In this document: positions 31,042-62,758 of the stretch, piece after piece
How positions within the stretch are numbered: position 1 is the first letter of the stretch
How the letters are laid out: each line of letters begins with the position of its first letter
DNA from: Phycisphaerae bacterium
GTDB lineage: Bacteria > Planctomycetota > Phycisphaerae > UBA1845 > PWPN01
NCBI GenBank assembly: GCA_018003015.1
Contig: JAGNEZ010000012.1
Location: 1 to 64,000 of the forward strand
Direction of reading: 5' to 3'
Length of the DNA stretch: 64,000 bases
Translations under genes and position numbers: made by a program
The notes under the pieces: model-generated
The model's input: only the letters and a program-made list of their open reading frames with translations
Told to the model about the DNA's origin: nothing
Database searches by the model: none

Positions 31042-31115
31042 CGGGCGATTAGCTCAGCTGGCTAGAGCGTCTCGCTTACACCGAGAAGGTCACTGGTTCG
31101 AGTCCGGTATCGCCC
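31042..31115 (+). tRNA. tRNA-Val (anticodon UAC)
   Basis: A full cloverleaf can be folded. The acceptor stem is GGGCGAT with ATCGCCC. The D-arm has GCTC and GAGC, and the anticodon arm has TCTCG and CGAGA around the loop CTTACAC. The T-arm is ACTGG, TTCGAGT, CCGGT. The discriminator base is A. The anticodon TAC reads GUA and other Val codons. The 3' CCA is not encoded, so it must be added by the cca product. Confidence 0.95.
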
Positions 31116-31422
31116 AATACCCCCACGTGACGCCAAGAACCAGCGCCAAACGAAGCCAATTCAGAATCAGCTGTGAGCCGGAGCGGTGGGAGCTGACCTC
31201 GTCCGAGCCTGGACCGCGGCGAGTCAAGCGGCAGGGCTATTAGGATTTCAAAGAGCTGGGAGGCGGACCGCAGGGATCGTCCTCCACACTCATATCACCT
31301 GTCCCGTCCCGGGCCAGGAAAGGTGATCAGCGGTCAACGGTCAGCAAGAGGAAACGGGTGGAACCCCTAGTCACCCGTGGCATGAGAACAGCATATCCCG
31401 CAAATCACGGAGCCTGCCCCTG
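31116..31422. other. Intergenic region between tRNA-Val and a minus-strand gene
   Basis: No gene is supported in these 307 nt. A 7-bp inverted repeat TCACCT...AGGTGA spans about 31296-31327, and the hairpin at 31354-31378 is listed separately. Confidence 0.4.
31354..31378 (-). terminator. Possible terminator of the 178-residue gene
   Basis: ACGGGTG and CACCCGT form a 7-bp stem with an 11-nt loop, followed on the minus strand by TTTCCTCTT. It lies about 45 nt after the stop of the gene at 31423-31959. The T-tract is imperfect. Confidence 0.4.
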
Positions 31423-50213: not shown

Positions 50214-51842
50214 TCAATCCGCGCTGACCGTCACCAGCTCCGCCAATCGATCCATCTCCTGCCGCAGGGCCCAATCCGGGAATCGCTCGGACGGGCGTTT
50301 CTCGGCCTGGTATGCCCGGATGACCTGCGCGATCGCCAGGTGAACGAGCTCGGCCGGCACCTTGATTTTCCTGTCGCCGTCCCGGCACACAAAACGTCCG
50401 AACTCCGGTTGTGAGCCGAGTCGTCCGCCGAGCAGGATGTGATAGTGCTCCACGCCCTTCCGGCCCTTGTAGTTGTACAGCGTCCCCTGCAGTCCGATCT
50501 CGGCGATCTGGTACTGGGCGCAGCTGTTCGGGCAGCCGGTTACGGAGATGAAGATCGGCTCCTGCATCGGTACATTGGCTTCGAGATAGTCCAGAATGCG
50601 CCTGGCCCGGTCCTTGGTCTCGACCACGGCGAGGTTGCAGAACTGCGTTCCGGTGCAGCTCAGGATTCGCTGCCGAACCAGCGGGGCGTCCGACGGCAGA
50701 CCGATATCCGCCAGCCCCTTTTTGACATCCGGCAGGTCGGCCCTGGGTATGTTCAGCAGCAGGAGGTTCTGCTTGATGCTCGCGTTGATCTGCCGTTCCG
50801 GATCGCGACAATACCGTTCGGCCAGGTCAGCGAGCTGCATCATCTGGTCACCGGTCAGGCGGCCGCAGGGAACCGGGACTCCCACAAATGCCAGACCGTT
50901 TTTCAGTACGCCTCCGCCCGCATGGTCATCGCTGGATGCTCCGGCCGGGGCTACGATTTCCTGGTCATGCTCGAGGGGGTAGCCCAGATAGTGCTCCAGC
51001 TGAACGCGGAACGCCTCCCAGCCGATCTGGGCGACGTAGAACTTCAAACGGGCTCGCAAGCGGCCTTCGCGGAGATGGCTTTGATCCCTGAAGATGTGTG
51101 CGGTTGCCCGGCAGACGTCGATGACCAGGCCCAGGTCCGGTTTCAGAAACACGCGGAGCGACTGCCCGAAGTGCGGCGTGTCGCGCAGCCCGCCACCCAC
51201 GCTGACGCCGAATCCTCGCTCGCGGCCGTTGGCTCGTTTACGTTCCACGCCGAAGAACGCCAGGCAATTGATCTGTGGCGCATGGCAGTGGACGCGACAT
51301 CCACTGATCGAGGTCTTGAACTTCCGGGGCAGATTGCTGAACTCCCTGCCGCCCGCCCGGTACATGTCGGTGATGGCCTGAGCGAACGGCCGGGTGTCCA
51401 CGATCTCGTCGGCCAGCTCACCCGCCAGCGGGCACGCGGTCACGTTGCGAGGGGTGTCTCCGCAGGCGAACTCCTGGTGCATCCCAAGGGTTTGGTAGAT
51501 GGTGGACAGGGCGTCGGGCAGGTCCTGGACGCGCAGCCAGTGCAGCTGGATATCCTGACGCGTGGTTACATCTCCGAAGTTGCGGCCGTAACGCCGGGCC
51601 AGTTGCCCGATCTCCCGCAGTCGAAACGCGGTCAGTGCTCCGCCCGGCATCTTGATCCGGAGCATGAAATGCCCTTCGTTGGGCTTCTGCTTGTAGATGC
51701 CGTACCATTTGAAGCGATCCAGATCGTCGGGATCGATGGCCGCGTAGTCTCCTGCGGCCGCGTATCGGTGGATATCGTCCCAGACGTCCAGACCGTCCTT
51801 GATTCGCTTGAGTTCTTCTGCCTGAGCAGCTTTGACGGCCAT
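50214..51842 (-). CDS. Ferredoxin-dependent siroheme nitrite/sulfite reductase
   Basis: The 542-residue hemoprotein has the ferredoxin-type half domains: GHFMLRIKMPGGALTAFRLREIG, RYGRNFGDVTTRQDIQLHWLRVQDLP and TGCPNSC. The siroheme/[4Fe-4S] ligands sit in CTGTQFC (about 392-398) and GCPNSC (about 433-437). It reduces nitrite to ammonium or sulfite to sulfide; sequence by eye does not decide. The start at 51842 is preferred to the upstream frame because GAGGAA lies just before it. It leads toward the zinc-ribbon and Rieske genes. Confidence 0.9.
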   Translation of the reverse strand: MAVKAAQAEELKRIKDGLDVWDDIHRYAAAGDYAAIDPDDLDRFKWYGIYKQKPNEGHFMLRIKMPGGALTAFRLREIGQLARRYGRNFGDVTTRQDIQLHWLRVQDLPDALSTIYQTLGMHQEFACGDTPRNVTACPLAGELADEIVDTRPFAQAITDMYRAGGREFSNLPRKFKTSISGCRVHCHAPQINCLAFFGVERKRANGRERGFGVSVGGGLRDTPHFGQSLRVFLKPDLGLVIDVCRATAHIFRDQSHLREGRLRARLKFYVAQIGWEAFRVQLEHYLGYPLEHDQEIVAPAGASSDDHAGGGVLKNGLAFVGVPVPCGRLTGDQMMQLADLAERYCRDPERQINASIKQNLLLLNIPRADLPDVKKGLADIGLPSDAPLVRQRILSCTGTQFCNLAVVETKDRARRILDYLEANVPMQEPIFISVTGCPNSCAQYQIAEIGLQGTLYNYKGRKGVEHYHILLGGRLGSQPEFGRFVCRDGDRKIKVPAELVHLAIAQVIRAYQAEKRPSERFPDWALRQEMDRLAELVTVSAD

Positions 51843-51894
51843 GCCTTGAGTTCCTCGCGACAGCGCTGGAAACCCGGGCAAGCCGTTGCCCGGG

Positions 51895-53779: not shown

Positions 53780-55636
53780 CTACTTCTGCTGTTTCCGCAC
53801 GATCACGTCGAAGTTCTTCACCATGGATCGGTAGGTTCCGGCGACGATCGCGCCATAGAGCGCCGCGGCGATGAATGTCCCTATGCACAGGAGCACGTTG
53901 AGGTCGAAGGGGTTTGCCGAAGTACCGAACTGATTCCGCCCGAGGCTGCCCGGGTCGAGCACGTAGTAGATCGCGGTGACGAAGGTGAGGGGAACGGTGA
54001 TGCTGGCGATTTCCGGGGGCACCTGCGATGTGCTCACGGCACACAGCGACAGGCCGAAGGCCACCACGAGCAGAATACCCATGCTGGCCATCACCGCCTG
54101 CACCGATTTCCTGCTTTTCAGCGACATCTGCAGACCGATCATGCAGGCGAATGACGCATAGACGGTCAGGAGGATCGGAAGCAGGACGGCCGACAGGAGC
54201 GACACGACCGGCTCCGGTGCTGCCCGGACCATATCGAAGATCGCGGCCGCAAGAACGGTGACGGCGGGGACGGCCATCAGGGGCAGGGCGAAGCTGATGA
54301 GCCCGCGAAGCTTACCCCAGACGATGTAGCGGCTGGTCAAGGGGGTGGTCAGGAGCAATTCCATGGTGCCATCGTCGCGTTCCCGGGTAATAGCTGTTCC
54401 GGCCGTATTCGCCGCCATCAGCAGGACGACCAGGAATTCGACCATCACGATCCAGATGAGCCACGCCCGGGCCAGAGTGGGTGAGGTTCCGGTCACGGGG
54501 TTGAACCACCCGGATCCGTAGCCATACAGGAACAGCACCCCGGTTGTCGCTCCGCCGATGAGGTAGGAGTACCGCATGAAGCCGCTGCTGGCGGCGCTGG
54601 CCTTGGTCACCGCTTCGCGCCAGGCGATCGGGTTCGACCAGACGCGGCGAATCCGGTGGCATCGCTCTTCGTCGGTCTTACGTCTGCCGAACCTGACCTG
54701 AAGGCTCCGAAGCAGTCCGGCCTCGCCCTGCTTGATGCCGCTCCGCAAGAAGAGCGTGGCGATGCCGACCAACACGGCGGATGCCAGGAGTGTCAGGGTC
54801 ATGTACGCCCACTGCGGCGAGGCGAGCATGTAGTTGAACGGCCAGGCGCGATGGGCAACCGCCGCGGCATCGGGCGGACGAATGTGATTCAGGGCCACTT
54901 CCAGTGCGTAGTAGGGGTGGATGATGGCCAGCCAGGTCATGCCCGTGTTGACACCGGGAATGACGGACTCCGGGACACAAGTCCACTGCAGGTTGCCCAG
55001 GCCGAGACCGGCGAACAGATAGACAGCGATGCCCACATAAAACGAGAAGATCGTACCCCGCGAGCCCACGCGTAGCACGCTCACCAGAATGGCCAGCGAG
55101 CCGGTCAGGATGGCCGTGCACCCCGCGATGCCGAAGCTCAGGAAGATCTGCTCGCTGGTCACGCCGCCGAAGATCATGGTGATGCAGAAGATCGGCAGGC
55201 CGGCGACCAAAAGGGCCAGAACGAAGAACAGCCGGCTGCCCAGTGAGCCAAGCACGATCTGGGCGTTGGTCAGCGGGGTGGTCAGCAGCACGTTGAACGT
55301 CTCTGCGTCCTTTTCCTGTGAAATCGCGCCGGCGGTGAAGACCGGTGCCAGGAAACACATCATGGCCAGCTGCAAAACGGCGATAATTTCGAAAATGCGG
55401 GTCGAGCCCTTGGCCAGGAGGGTCAGAGACTGCCCGGAACTGGAGTTGGCGAACTGAGCGATGAGCATCACGCCGAAGAGAATGAGCAGATACAGCACGC
55501 GGACCCAGAGATGCTGAGTCCGTTTGCCGCCGCCCTGCACGACACGCAGGACGATAGGGTTGGCCGGAAGCAGCCGCCACACCGCCAGGGCCATGTCGTG
55601 GAGCAGTGGCTTGGCGATCTCTCGTTTGATCTGCAT
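53780..55636 (-). CDS. ABC-2-type permease, double-length (two half units fused)
   Basis: The 618-residue membrane protein has about 12 helices in two halves. Each half contains the same cytoplasmic motif, ETFNVLLTTPLTNAQIVLG and GTMELLLTTPLTSRYIVWG, the mark of the ABC-2 permease. One chain therefore carries what is normally a dimer. It follows the two paralogous secreted proteins and an ABC ATPase. It probably moves a lipid, glycan or peptide; the substrate is unknown. The ATG at 55636 is chosen to remove an unsupported N-terminal tail. Confidence 0.85.
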   Translation of the reverse strand: MQIKREIAKPLLHDMALAVWRLLPANPIVLRVVQGGGKRTQHLWVRVLYLLILFGVMLIAQFANSSSGQSLTLLAKGSTRIFEIIAVLQLAMMCFLAPVFTAGAISQEKDAETFNVLLTTPLTNAQIVLGSLGSRLFFVLALLVAGLPIFCITMIFGGVTSEQIFLSFGIAGCTAILTGSLAILVSVLRVGSRGTIFSFYVGIAVYLFAGLGLGNLQWTCVPESVIPGVNTGMTWLAIIHPYYALEVALNHIRPPDAAAVAHRAWPFNYMLASPQWAYMTLTLLASAVLVGIATLFLRSGIKQGEAGLLRSLQVRFGRRKTDEERCHRIRRVWSNPIAWREAVTKASAASSGFMRYSYLIGGATTGVLFLYGYGSGWFNPVTGTSPTLARAWLIWIVMVEFLVVLLMAANTAGTAITRERDDGTMELLLTTPLTSRYIVWGKLRGLISFALPLMAVPAVTVLAAAIFDMVRAAPEPVVSLLSAVLLPILLTVYASFACMIGLQMSLKSRKSVQAVMASMGILLVVAFGLSLCAVSTSQVPPEIASITVPLTFVTAIYYVLDPGSLGRNQFGTSANPFDLNVLLCIGTFIAAALYGAIVAGTYRSMVKNFDVIVRKQQK

Positions 55637-55690: not shown

Positions 55691-56815
55691 TTATGGTTGT
55701 GCTCCCAGCCCCAGGGCCACGAGATCCGACTCGTCGAACGGCATTCCGTGCTGGTCGGCCCGCTCCCGGATGGGTGCCGCCGCGGCCTCGCGCTGTTCCG
55801 CGGTTGCCAGGGCTATCACCGCCGCCTGAAACTCTCGCTGGACCTCCCGGATGGGGCCGGTCAGATGCTCATACTCACGCTCCATGTGGTAGATCCAGGG
55901 ACGGACGCTCTCTTGGCTCAGCGACCACCGCATCGAGTACTTCATGCGATTCTGCCGGCATTGTGCGCGCCAATTGCCGACCATGAGGGCCTCGGCCCGC
56001 TCGCGGTACTTGGCCAGCAGGTCCTCGGCCTGGACCATCTGTTGTTCGTCGTATTTGAAGAACTGCTTGACGGCCGTCAGGTAGCTCCGCCATTGCTTCG
56101 GATCGATCTGCTGCAGCTCGTTATCGGCTTGCCACCGAGCCTGGCGCATTGCGGGAGGCTCTTTTGCAGCCGCCTTCTCGTCCATGTCGATTTCCTGCTC
56201 AAGCCCGTTGATCGTATCTTCGGAGGGTTTGAGTTCACCTCGAGACCATCGCTGGAGGGTTTCCTCCATGTGGTCGAACTTCCTCCTCATCTCCTCCATG
56301 CCCGCGCGGTACTTTGCCCATTGCTCGTCCGAGAGTTCGGCGCGGGCGTCGCTGGAGAAGCCCTTGAACAGCTCGCGAATCGCGGGGGTGAAGCCTGCCC
56401 CGCGTCGCCCGAGTTCCTTGGTCATCTCCGGGCCGATCTTCTGGCCGCGGGTCGTCATCAGGGTCTCCATCCAGTACTCGCACAGATCGCGCATCGCCTC
56501 GCCGTGCCGGTGGCCCATGTCCATGGTCCGCTCAGCGAAGCTCCCGCTCAGCTTGTCGATCTGCTCGCTGGAAAGCCCGATTTCCTTGTTGACCTCCTTG
56601 GCCACGAATTGGCGGGAGAACAGCCGAACGACTTCCGGAGTCAGGCGGAAACCGTTCTGCGTCGGCCGCATCAGCTCATCGGTCGTCGTGGTCTCGTTCG
56701 AACCGGTCGCGTCCTGGGCCATGAGCGATCCCGGGAGACCGGCCCCTACCGCGCCGGTCAAGAGCCAGACTGCCAGGCCGCGGCCTCGCCGGACCAGACG
56801 TGGTTCCGCACTCAT
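55691..56815 (-). CDS. Secreted helical protein B of a paralogous pair
   Basis: The 374-residue product has a signal peptide (about 1-34, ending SLMAQDA) and is otherwise almost wholly alpha-helical and charged. It has Trp/Arg-rich repeats such as KQWRSYLTAVKQFFKYDEQQMVQAEDLL and RERAEALMVGNWRAQCRQNRMKYSMRW. These line up with the same positions of protein A upstream. The start overlaps the stop of A by 4 nt. I know of no family. Encoded between the ATPase and permease, it may be a periplasmic accessory. Confidence 0.75.
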   Translation of the reverse strand: MSAEPRLVRRGRGLAVWLLTGAVGAGLPGSLMAQDATGSNETTTTDELMRPTQNGFRLTPEVVRLFSRQFVAKEVNKEIGLSSEQIDKLSGSFAERTMDMGHRHGEAMRDLCEYWMETLMTTRGQKIGPEMTKELGRRGAGFTPAIRELFKGFSSDARAELSDEQWAKYRAGMEEMRRKFDHMEETLQRWSRGELKPSEDTINGLEQEIDMDEKAAAKEPPAMRQARWQADNELQQIDPKQWRSYLTAVKQFFKYDEQQMVQAEDLLAKYRERAEALMVGNWRAQCRQNRMKYSMRWSLSQESVRPWIYHMEREYEHLTGPIREVQREFQAAVIALATAEQREAAAAPIRERADQHGMPFDESDLVALGLGAQP

Positions 56816-57981
56816 TGGTCTTCTCCTGTCTTCAGGTCGTCGCCGGCGGCAGCGGTCTCGGCCGTGCCAGCCGACTGGCCCTCGACCGTCGAGCCCGCGG
56901 GCTGCGAAGCGGCAGGCTCCTGGTAGCCGTGGGCGATCAGCGCCTTTGCGATGCGCTCCTCGGCTGCCGCCCGCTGGGCCTGGGTGGGAATGGCGTCGAT
57001 CCGCTGCTTCAGGTCGTCGCCGATCGTCTTGATCGGCTGGACCATCACGCTGTGGACGTTGTCCAGGTGGCCCCGAAGCGGGTGGTTCGGCCCGATCCGC
57101 AGCTCCCACAGCATATGGTACCATATGCGGTTTCGATACACTTTTTCACGCCACTGGGTATCCTGGGTGATGGCCTGGGCCCGCTCCAGGCACTCGCGAA
57201 GCACGGAATCCGCGGTGTTGGACTGCGATTCGTCAAAACCGTAGAATTTCTTGGCCTCCTCGACATATCGCTTCCACTGGTTCGATTCGGCATTGTCGAT
57301 TTCCCGTTGGGCGATCTGCTTCGCGTTGGTATAGCGTGCCGACTGTCCGCTGCCGTCCTTCCTGACGTCGTTTCCTTCTTCCGAGAAGGGGTTCTCGTAA
57401 GGTTTGATGTCACCGTTCTCCCACCGCTGCATGGTCTTATCGAAGATGTCCAGCGCGGTCGTCATGCCCATCAGATCCGCAGCAAAGGTGAGCTGGTCCT
57501 TGGCCGCCAGCATTGGGCGGATGTCCTTCGAGACACCCTGGAGCATCTCCCGCAAGGCGGGCATGAACGGCTTGGATGCCTGGCTGATCGCCTTGGCCAC
57601 ACCCGGTTTGACGATCCCTCGATTGTCCTCTCCGCTGTCTTCGATCTCGGCCCGAAGGACCTCGGCGACGAAATGCTCCATCTGTTGGTTGTAGCCCGCC
57701 GCGTCCAGCTTGTGGGCCATGCTCATCAGTCGCCGGGCCACCGTCTCGGCGGCCTCGTCCACTTTGCTCGCGTCGAGGTTGTATCGCTTGGCGGCCACCT
57801 CTTCGGCGAACAGTCGGCCCATTGCCCGGGCCATGCCGGGAGTGAACCGCACGCCGAGCTCGGTCGGTTGGTCCCTGCTCGTCCGCTCGCTGTCCGGCGG
57901 GGCCTGGACCTGGCCGGGGAGGGGTGTGGCCAGGCCGAGCAGCACGCCCGGCAGCCAGCGCCATCGCATCGAACACTGCAT
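56812..57981 (-). CDS. Secreted helical protein A of a paralogous pair
   Basis: The 389-residue product has a signal peptide (about 1-27) and a helical body. Body sequences such as FTPGMARAMGRLFAEEVAAK, NQWKRYVEEAKKFYGFDESQ and REKVYRNRIWYHMLWELR match protein B in order, spacing and key Trp/Tyr/Arg residues, showing that the two are paralogues. A short Ala/Thr-rich tail ends it. GGAG precedes the ATG. Function unknown; it lies 21 nt after the ATPase gene. Confidence 0.75.
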   Translation of the reverse strand: MQCSMRWRWLPGVLLGLATPLPGQVQAPPDSERTSRDQPTELGVRFTPGMARAMGRLFAEEVAAKRYNLDASKVDEAAETVARRLMSMAHKLDAAGYNQQMEHFVAEVLRAEIEDSGEDNRGIVKPGVAKAISQASKPFMPALREMLQGVSKDIRPMLAAKDQLTFAADLMGMTTALDIFDKTMQRWENGDIKPYENPFSEEGNDVRKDGSGQSARYTNAKQIAQREIDNAESNQWKRYVEEAKKFYGFDESQSNTADSVLRECLERAQAITQDTQWREKVYRNRIWYHMLWELRIGPNHPLRGHLDNVHSVMVQPIKTIGDDLKQRIDAIPTQAQRAAAEERIAKALIAHGYQEPAASQPAGSTVEGQSAGTAETAAAGDDLKTGEDQ

Positions 57982-61541: not shown

Positions 61542-62705
61542 CTACTTCCTCGGACCCCGGAGGCACCTCAGGGCCCGCTGGAGCGACTCGACGAAGAAGA
61601 ACTCGCCCCACATCACGGATTCATCCACGCCCAGCCCCTTGTTGCGATGGTATACCCCGTGCTTGAGGATCCCTTCCCAGCTGCCATCGCCCAAGGCCAG
61701 ATACTCCGGCCCGCACAGCGCCCCCACCATCCGGAGGCCGACCTCCTTGAGGTGCTGGCGCTGCCTTGCCTCCTTCTCGCCCACGAGTTGCTGGGCGTCC
61801 GCCAGCTCGAACAGGCCACAGGCCGCGATCGCTCCGGCGGAGGTATCTTTCTGTCGCCTTGATTCCTCGGGGGCATCAAAATCCCACGGCGGCACCGGGT
61901 CCGCTGACACCCTCTCCATCAGGTACTGGGCGCAGTGCCGAGACGTTTCCAGCCACGGGATGAAGTTCAGGATCCGACCCGACGTGGCGAACCCGTAGAT
62001 TGCCCATGCCAGGCCGCGTGACCAGCACGAGTCGCCGCGATAGCCCTGGTGAGTCGTCTGCCTGAGGCACTCGCCGGTCGATAGGTCGAACATCGCCTCG
62101 TGAGACGTCGAGCCGTCGCCCCGCACGAGGTAGCGACGTGATGTCGCGCAGTGCTTGCTGGCCACCTCCAGCAGCTCGCTGTCGTTTGTCTCGACCGCGG
62201 TCAGCAGGATGATCGGCACATTCATCATGATGTCTACGAAAAGCGAATCGGGAGCCACGAACGATCGCAGGTAGTTGCCGACGGGCATGAATCGTTTGGC
62301 GAGCGTCCGGCCGGCGTGATGAACGACCTCGCGTAGGGCGGGATCCGGCTTACCTTCGCGGACCGTCGCCTCGTACCATCGCCGGTACGTCCCGTGGTAG
62401 AAGAGGAAGCCGAGGTCGTGGACGTCCCGGTCGTCCTTCCGCGGCTCGATCAGCCGGCTGTAATGCTCGGCCTTCTCTCGCCAGTAACGGTCGCCCGTCT
62501 CCTCGTGGAAGATCCACATCATGCCGGGCAGGAAACCCTCGCACCAGTTGGTCCATTTCTCCCCTGTGTGCTGCCACTTCCCCTGAACGGTGTACATGGG
62601 GAAGTAGTCCGGGTATCGCTCGACCAGCTTTCGTACCTGCTGCTGGGCGAACTCAAACCCTGCTTCAATCCGTTTCAGCAACTGGGACTGCTCCTTTTTG
62701 GCCAT
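61542..62705 (-). CDS. Glycoside hydrolase family 88/105-type enzyme
   Basis: The 387-residue cytoplasmic-type enzyme is a six-hairpin (alpha/alpha) hydrolase of the unsaturated glucuronyl/galacturonyl hydrolase group, which hydrolyses unsaturated uronic sugars released by lyases. Family blocks are TGEKWTNWCEGFLPGMMWIFHEETGD, VHDLGFLFYHG (catalytic Asp), FVDIMMNVPIILL (second catalytic Asp region), GDSCWSRGLAWAIYGFA and DTSAGAIAACGL. AAGGAG precedes the ATG at 62705, which removes a longer upstream frame. It diverges from the isomerase gene across a palindrome, hinting at shared control. Confidence 0.88.
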   Translation of the reverse strand: MAKKEQSQLLKRIEAGFEFAQQQVRKLVERYPDYFPMYTVQGKWQHTGEKWTNWCEGFLPGMMWIFHEETGDRYWREKAEHYSRLIEPRKDDRDVHDLGFLFYHGTYRRWYEATVREGKPDPALREVVHHAGRTLAKRFMPVGNYLRSFVAPDSLFVDIMMNVPIILLTAVETNDSELLEVASKHCATSRRYLVRGDGSTSHEAMFDLSTGECLRQTTHQGYRGDSCWSRGLAWAIYGFATSGRILNFIPWLETSRHCAQYLMERVSADPVPPWDFDAPEESRRQKDTSAGAIAACGLFELADAQQLVGEKEARQRQHLKEVGLRMVGALCGPEYLALGDGSWEGILKHGVYHRNKGLGVDESVMWGEFFFVESLQRALRCLRGPRK

Positions 62706-62741
62706 GGACAGACTCCTTCTCCTGTTGTCGCAAACCCTTGC

Positions 62742-62758
62742 CATTCCTTACAGGAATG
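62742..62758. promoter_or_regulatory. Perfect palindrome between divergent GH88 and isomerase genes
   Basis: CATTCCT, TAC, AGGAATG is a perfect 17-bp inverted repeat with a 3-nt centre. It lies between the start codons of GH88 (62705) and the isomerase (62776). It overlaps possible promoters on both strands: minus TTGTCC-17-TGTAAG (62775-62747) and plus TTGCCA (62738-62743) with TATCGG (62763-62768). It is a good candidate operator for a sugar-responsive repressor. No regulator gene is adjacent. Confidence 0.55.

Follow-up and report, generated by a model that had tools for sequence, protein, structure and literature searches.

The Spy-like proteins known so far act as free chaperones or as sensors. 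According to two papers (PMC8144458, PMC4791398), Spy consists of four helices, carries two LTxxQ motifs, dimerises in the shape of a cradle and can hold unfolded clients in an ATP-independent way. Here we describe two adjacent genes from an uncultured planctomycete, encoding the proteins A and B, which by their sequences look like Spy-like periplasmic helical proteins that went through two rounds of doubling and became part of an exporter operon. As in the Spy/CpxP family (PF07813), both proteins are all-helical and probably periplasmic, each of their halves appears to carry two LTxxQ-type motifs approximately 80 aa apart, and each half of the A/B family matches an LTXXQ profile. They differ from Spy/CpxP in having two such domains per chain, in their degenerate motifs, in their scores below the Pfam cut-off, in the overall acidity of the family, in their tie to an ABC operon and in forming a paralogous pair.

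This offers an identity for a protein family that has no Pfam or NCBIfam match. It is also an example of a Spy-like module that would have been doubled within the chain, placed in an exporter operon and then duplicated into a conserved pair. An exporter-tied Spy-like protein, if true, would widen the known uses of such proteins, and the occurrence of no gene, one gene or two genes at the same site provides natural before-and-after states for an ABC-2 exporter.

Organisation of the locus

The window, that is, the whole stretch of 64,000 nucleotides that was analysed, is part of a 6.86-Mb genome (G000, contig C12). The operon lies on its minus strand and reads, in this order, DUF4350-like protein, ABC ATPase, A, B, ABC-2 permease and TPR-like protein. 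The first gene of the cassette (61396-59057) encodes a membrane protein which resembles DUF4350 very weakly (PF14258, E 0.0064, below the cut-off). It is followed by the gene of a DrrA/GldA-like ABC transporter ATPase (58986-58003; PF00005, E 8.4e-27), placed immediately upstream of the gene for protein A (57981-56812), a chain of 389 aa which probably begins with a signal peptide and whose two helical halves, both Spy-like, cover residues 48-188 and 215-350 approximately. Its paralogue B (56815-55691, 374 aa) begins at an ATG which overlaps the stop TGA of A by 4 bp (ATGA); a longer frame of 477 aa, starting within A, is not likely to represent the true start. Immediately downstream of B is the gene of the ABC-2 permease (55669-53780; PF12679, E 4.2e-22, in two stretches), which has two permease-like regions and for which an in-frame ATG at 55636 is the likelier start. 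The last gene of the operon (53499-51895) encodes a TPR-like secreted protein; it is also found behind the cassette in genome G001 and was not seen at this place in the other pair-bearing stretches that were read. Since PF00005 and PF12679 were both matched above their cut-offs in adjacent genes of the same strand, the operon is that of an ABC-2 exporter, and the operon setting that an earlier note on this DNA had proposed for A and B is borne out.

The ATPase and the permease show some likeness to GldAF(G), with 224 bits against GldA and 39.4 bits against GldF, both far below the NCBIfam equivalog cut-offs (402.6 and 288.5, respectively). In contrast to the Gld system, the permease of the window has a length of 629 aa and contains two permease-like regions. 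The Gld system is not known to have a Spy-like part.

Relationship between A and B

BLASTP aligned A and B colinearly with 90 identical residues out of 341 (26%) and an E value of 8e-38. The score of this alignment was 136 bits (without composition correction), while shuffled versions of B reached at most 35 bits in 1000 full shuffles and 43.5 bits in 1000 shuffles within ten-residue windows. When the A clade (9 rows) and the B clade (13 rows) were compared as profiles, hhalign gave a probability of 100% over 309 columns. By halves, the N-terminal parts of A and B matched each other with 99.95% and the C-terminal parts with 99.8%, and no cross match of an N half with a C half was obtained (<1%). 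Moreover, the predicted models of A and B (pLDDT 75.9 and 78.2, pTM 0.53 and 0.54, respectively) have the same order of helices, arranged in two helix groups with a poorly predicted linker between them. A and B are paralogues and descend from one gene.

The earlier note had described the two as paralogous back-to-back genes, and the 4-bp overlap together with a similarity well beyond that of the shuffles agrees with this. The aligned helix motifs that it had quoted are indeed present and in register in the BLAST alignment, QWKRYVEEAKKFYGFDE at position 235 of A with QWRSYLTAVKQFFKYDE at position 241 of B, and YRNRIWYHMLWEL at position 282 of A with RQNRMKYSMRWSL at position 287 of B. The profile alignment and the structure prediction that it had suggested as checks gave a significant similarity and one shared helix order, respectively, and its idea of duplication plus divergence is supported by the clade and half profiles as well as by the tree given below. 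It had also called the proteins unrecognised. For A no Pfam or NCBIfam family was matched; B had no NCBIfam match and only sub-threshold Pfam matches, GH-E being the best one (E 0.15). A function of B as a nuclease (GH-E) or as an exocyst protein was discarded, as these Pfam matches (E 0.15-0.18) are noise. As to the secretion that it assumed, inspection by eye shows an N-terminus that is hydrophobic and has an A-Q type site behind it. The earlier note overlooked that the family looks Spy/LTXXQ-like, that the operon belongs to an ABC exporter and that A and B go back to a single gene.

Distribution and duplication history

A total of 61 genomes of one order (Phycisphaerae, Planctomycetota) were compared. 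At E ≤0.001 A was matched in 58 and B in 32 of them, many of these matches being weak or partial, and strong full-length matches were confined to two families, here designated f1 and f7. In f1, A-B pairs are present in 12 of the 13 genomes, the thirteenth (G011) being 55% complete. The order is A then B in all of the 14 pairs, and the junction is a 4-bp overlap in 8 of these, the rest having short overlaps or gaps, with one unclear start. One genome (G012) has an additional cut-off B-like gene upstream of its pair. In f7 there is instead a single homologue, found at the cassette in 13 of 14 genomes, with a second copy elsewhere in G041; the fourteenth genome (G056) has no match to the first protein of the cassette or to the permease either. 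In a profile search of 246 genomes of the phylum, in which up to 8 candidates per genome were scored, the genome of the window was the only one matched at E 1e-6.

The tree was built from 37 rows, i.e. 31 family members from these loci and six distant relatives; the A row of G001 and the pairs of G002 and G012 were omitted. All 11 A rows fell in one clade (100/100) and all 12 B rows in another (100/100). The singles of f7 are outside both clades, which places the duplication in the f1 line, and the lone single of an f1 genome (G005) is found near the base of A+B.

The exporter cassette

The first protein of the cassette was matched in 57 and the permease in 58 of the 61 relatives, and the former also in 37 of 120 genomes sampled from the class. 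We read 40 additional cassette stretches, 32 of them outside f1 and f7. Of these 32, 28 contain a complete cassette (13 in family f8, 11 in f4, three in f2 and one in f5), and in none of the 28 was the A/B profile matched between ATPase and permease; the remaining four lack at least one of the three cassette genes. By this distribution, the cassette of DUF4350-like protein, ATPase and permease is order-wide and predates A and B.

All 13 genomes of f7 that possess the single homologue have it in or at the cassette. The four genes were called in order in ten of them and placed by coordinates in G038; G053 is without a called ATPase, and in G026 the single follows the ATPase, the permease being located on a separate contig. 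In f1, A-B is placed immediately before the permease in 10 of the 12 pair-bearing genomes, eight having the whole cassette and two being cut by contig ends. Genome G005 has kept a single in the cassette and has a row of A-B-A-B elsewhere, while in G006 the cassette is dispersed and the pair stands behind a different ABC-2 ATPase and permease. In G010 a second pair (G010:C9) comes after the genes of an ECF sigma factor and of a WD40-repeat kinase.

The A-B-A-B array of G005 (L070:2641-7156, G005:C336) is located away from the cassette and is flanked by a malectin-domain protein on one side and a sodium-solute symporter on the other. In some f4 genomes (L175, L204/L205) other genes, which are not A/B-like, were found between ATPase and permease. 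This site seems to accept insertions repeatedly.

Relation to the Spy/CpxP (LTXXQ) family

Neither A nor B matched PF07813 (LTXXQ) or PF13801 (Metal_resist) at E ≤1. Distant relatives of the two, which are secreted proteins encoded by stand-alone genes and approximately 330-520 aa long, occur throughout the order, and the genome of the window has two of them; their profile E values are mostly between 1e-10 and 1e-40. These proteins (e.g. in L154, L106, L115) share with A and B the two-half architecture and a similar length; they differ in being free-standing in the loci read, outside the exporter cassette, and the six included in the tree are outside the clade of A, B and singles. They show a clearer pattern, namely Y-x-L-(T/D)-x-x-Q and, about 80 residues on, L-(T/S)-x-x-Q, which is repeated in the second half. 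Two full-length relatives come near the Pfam LTXXQ family, with E values of 2.1e-4 (22.4 bits) and 8e-4 (20.5 bits) against a cut-off of 24.3 bits; the first of them had 26.4 bits in the genome search.

We compared the family with an LTXXQ profile for which 17 LTXXQ-type segments were taken from this order. In hhalign the halves of the A/B family matched it with 95.7% (N) and 87.8% (C), and those of all relatives together with 97.0% and 94.0%, respectively. Both motif positions of each half align on the two LTxxQ positions of the profile. Reversed profiles used as controls gave at most 0.9% for the A/B-family halves and at most 4.9% over the four cases (A/B-family and all-relatives halves), with 11.4% for the distant relatives alone. 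The highest value in 20 column shuffles was 0.34% for the A/B-family halves and 0.5% across the four cases, and three unrelated profiles did not exceed 0.26%. When the rows were split, the N and C halves matched with 96% and 91% for B, 91% and 36% for the singles, and 61% and 28% for A. Having the weakest match, A is the more diverged member.

The motif positions are 67/157 and 247/331 in A and 79/159 and 253/336 in B. The spacing is therefore 90/84 in A and 80/83 in B, compared with mostly 76-84 in LTXXQ proteins. In each half the LTxxQ-type motifs are degenerate, B having LSSEQ and LSDEQ and A having LDASK in place of the first. The internal repeat of N and C halves was detected with 85% when the wider superfamily was used and with 8%, which is not significant, within A, B and singles alone. 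Taken together, A and B have the look of periplasmic proteins with two Spy-like units in tandem. That their homologues are acidic overall (net charge between 0 and -15 in the C-terminal 340 residues, computed for 32 A, B and single homologues other than the window's own two), whereas the cradle of Spy is basic, and that no Pfam cut-off is reached, count against a plain copy of Spy; the comparison of acidity concerns net charge only.

At least two LTXXQ stretches per chain above the Pfam cut-off were seen in L142 (G025:C4), L145 (G028:C12) and L150 (G015:C4), so that the order has doubled Spy-like units in other proteins as well. In L113:759-4533 (G007:C128) an ECF sigma factor, a zf-HC2 anti-sigma factor, an LTXXQ/Metal_resist protein and a tandem-Spy relative stand in one row, and similar LTXXQ and tandem-Spy neighbours occur in L137 and L141. 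Literature searches found no work pairing LTXXQ with Planctomycetes. Those on CpxP, Spy, ZraP, LTXXQ or CnrX had none with Phycisphaerae among the matches listed, and those on LTXXQ and ABC transporters returned expression or comparative studies, judged by title.

Structure comparisons

The helix order of the predicted models fits the Spy-type four-helix fold, with Z values within helical noise. Using VIA-align, CnrX was found at rank 11 for the N half of A (Z 6.3, 104 aligned residues, 5.4 Å), at rank 3 for the N half of B (Z 7.1, 105 aligned, 4.8 Å) and at rank 23 for the C half of A (Z 5.7, 98 aligned, 5.3 Å). For the C half of B, NccX was at rank 2 (Z 7.6, 135 aligned, 7.4 Å) and ZraP at rank 12 (Z 6.4, 78 aligned, 3.2 Å). 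Z values of 5.7-7.6 are in the chance range of helical bundles, and similar scores were reached by BAR domains, spidroin and pieces of clamp loaders. We give moderate weight to the recurrence of CnrX, NccX and ZraP in the lists of both halves, which would support a Spy-like family. E. coli Spy and CpxP were not among the structure matches listed, which excludes nothing. Foldseek searches of the PDB returned mixed helical proteins, with 128 and 140 matches at E ≤10, of which none reached 0.001.

A sequence search of the PDB with the 31-row profile had a MotA/TolQ/ExbB-type chain as best match (E 0.002 over 98 positions), which was dismissed as a coiled-helix chance match, as were the following ones, ubiquitin-conjugating enzymes and designed proteins.

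Possible role of the A-B pair

The homology of A and B, their single-gene ancestry, the conservation of the operon and the remote LTXXQ relationship were computed. We are inclined to suggest, with a probability of roughly 0.5, that A-B is a late-added, duplicated, tandem Spy-like periplasmic chaperone or adaptor of the ABC-2 exporter. An ancestral single gene would have entered the old order-wide cassette between ATPase and permease and would later have been duplicated to give A and B. Their products would be soluble periplasmic proteins, each with two Spy/CpxP-like helical domains in tandem, which on the periplasmic side of the exporter would serve as a holdase or adaptor that needs no ATP; the periplasmic location, the chaperone-like activity and the contact with the transporter are what we infer here. 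An exported or transporter-associated client may be gripped in the helical cradles of A-B, and A and B, which would probably form a hetero-oligomer, may each have become specialised for a surface or partner of its own. For a neighbour of an exporter, the role that suggests itself would be to receive or shield exported material, or to steady the transporter from the periplasmic side.

As each chain has two Spy-like halves, a lone chain could form a Spy-like cradle, and A and B together could make a larger one. That the two genes are kept together in constant order and often with a 4-bp overlap is consistent with a putative partner pair, which we regard as plausible. A more specific proposal would be an obligate heterodimer of tandem-Spy chains, each chain a pseudo-dimer, serving as a dedicated periplasmic client-handling module of the exporter that was added in one planctomycete lineage and split by duplication into specialised halves; we consider this rather unlikely. 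Among the observations that count against the chaperone or adaptor reading and its tie to the exporter are the complete exporter core without A/B in all 28 complete cassettes read outside f1 and f7, and the A-B pairs that stand apart from any ABC gene (G010:C9 and G005:C336).

A and B could also be sensors or regulators like CpxP, ZraP and CnrX, which would read the envelope state or the export traffic and signal to the ABC complex or to an ECF sigma pathway. CnrX, NccX and ZraP are the named relatives among the structure matches, the second pair of G010 follows an ECF sigma factor gene, and in G007 a distant relative ends the row of ECF sigma, zf-HC2 anti-sigma and LTXXQ/Metal_resist genes, a layout which resembles that of cnr-type metal-sensing operons. 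However, the neighbours of A-B in the window are ABC genes, with none for a sigma factor, an anti-sigma factor or a two-component system among them, no membrane anchor is visible besides the probable signal peptide, and the residues invariant in 31 rows (E102, W236, Q253, P301, Q336 and G352 in A numbering) include no His, Met or Cys for a metal site. In these respects A and B are unlike CnrX, NccX and ZraP. A strict metal sensor was rejected for want of a conserved metal-ligand residue, and a sensory or regulatory role in the broader sense we find possible but doubtful.

The position of A-B between ATPase and permease, together with the constant order and the frequent 4-bp overlap, which favour equal synthesis, would also suit fixed hetero-oligomeric subunits of the exporter, which would have no chaperone activity and would form a cap or bridge in the periplasm by which permease and DUF4350-like protein are coupled. 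Such subunits are improbable in our opinion, as the core cassette exists without A/B in four other families and A-B pairs exist without the cassette. The free-standing pairs G010:C9 and G005:C336, as well as the many stand-alone distant relatives in the order, could instead point to a duplicated secreted gene that hitch-hikes in the operon and encodes a general envelope stress protein, functionally unlinked to the exporter. This we hold to be very improbable, since the position has been kept in two families, in 10 of 12 (f1) and 13 of 13 (f7) genomes, and since in G006 the pair accompanies a different ABC-2 exporter.

Other features of the window

Upstream of the cassette there is a gene for a GH88-like glycoside hydrolase (61542-62744), and both G001 and G007 have a homologue at the corresponding position. 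Behind the TPR-like gene, a long ORF of the minus strand (50214-51881) reads, by eye, as a nitrite/sulfite reductase hemoprotein, and its homologue is found at the same place in G001. The sole RNA gene found in the window (Rfam, ARAGORN) is a tRNA-Val (tac) at 31043-31116.
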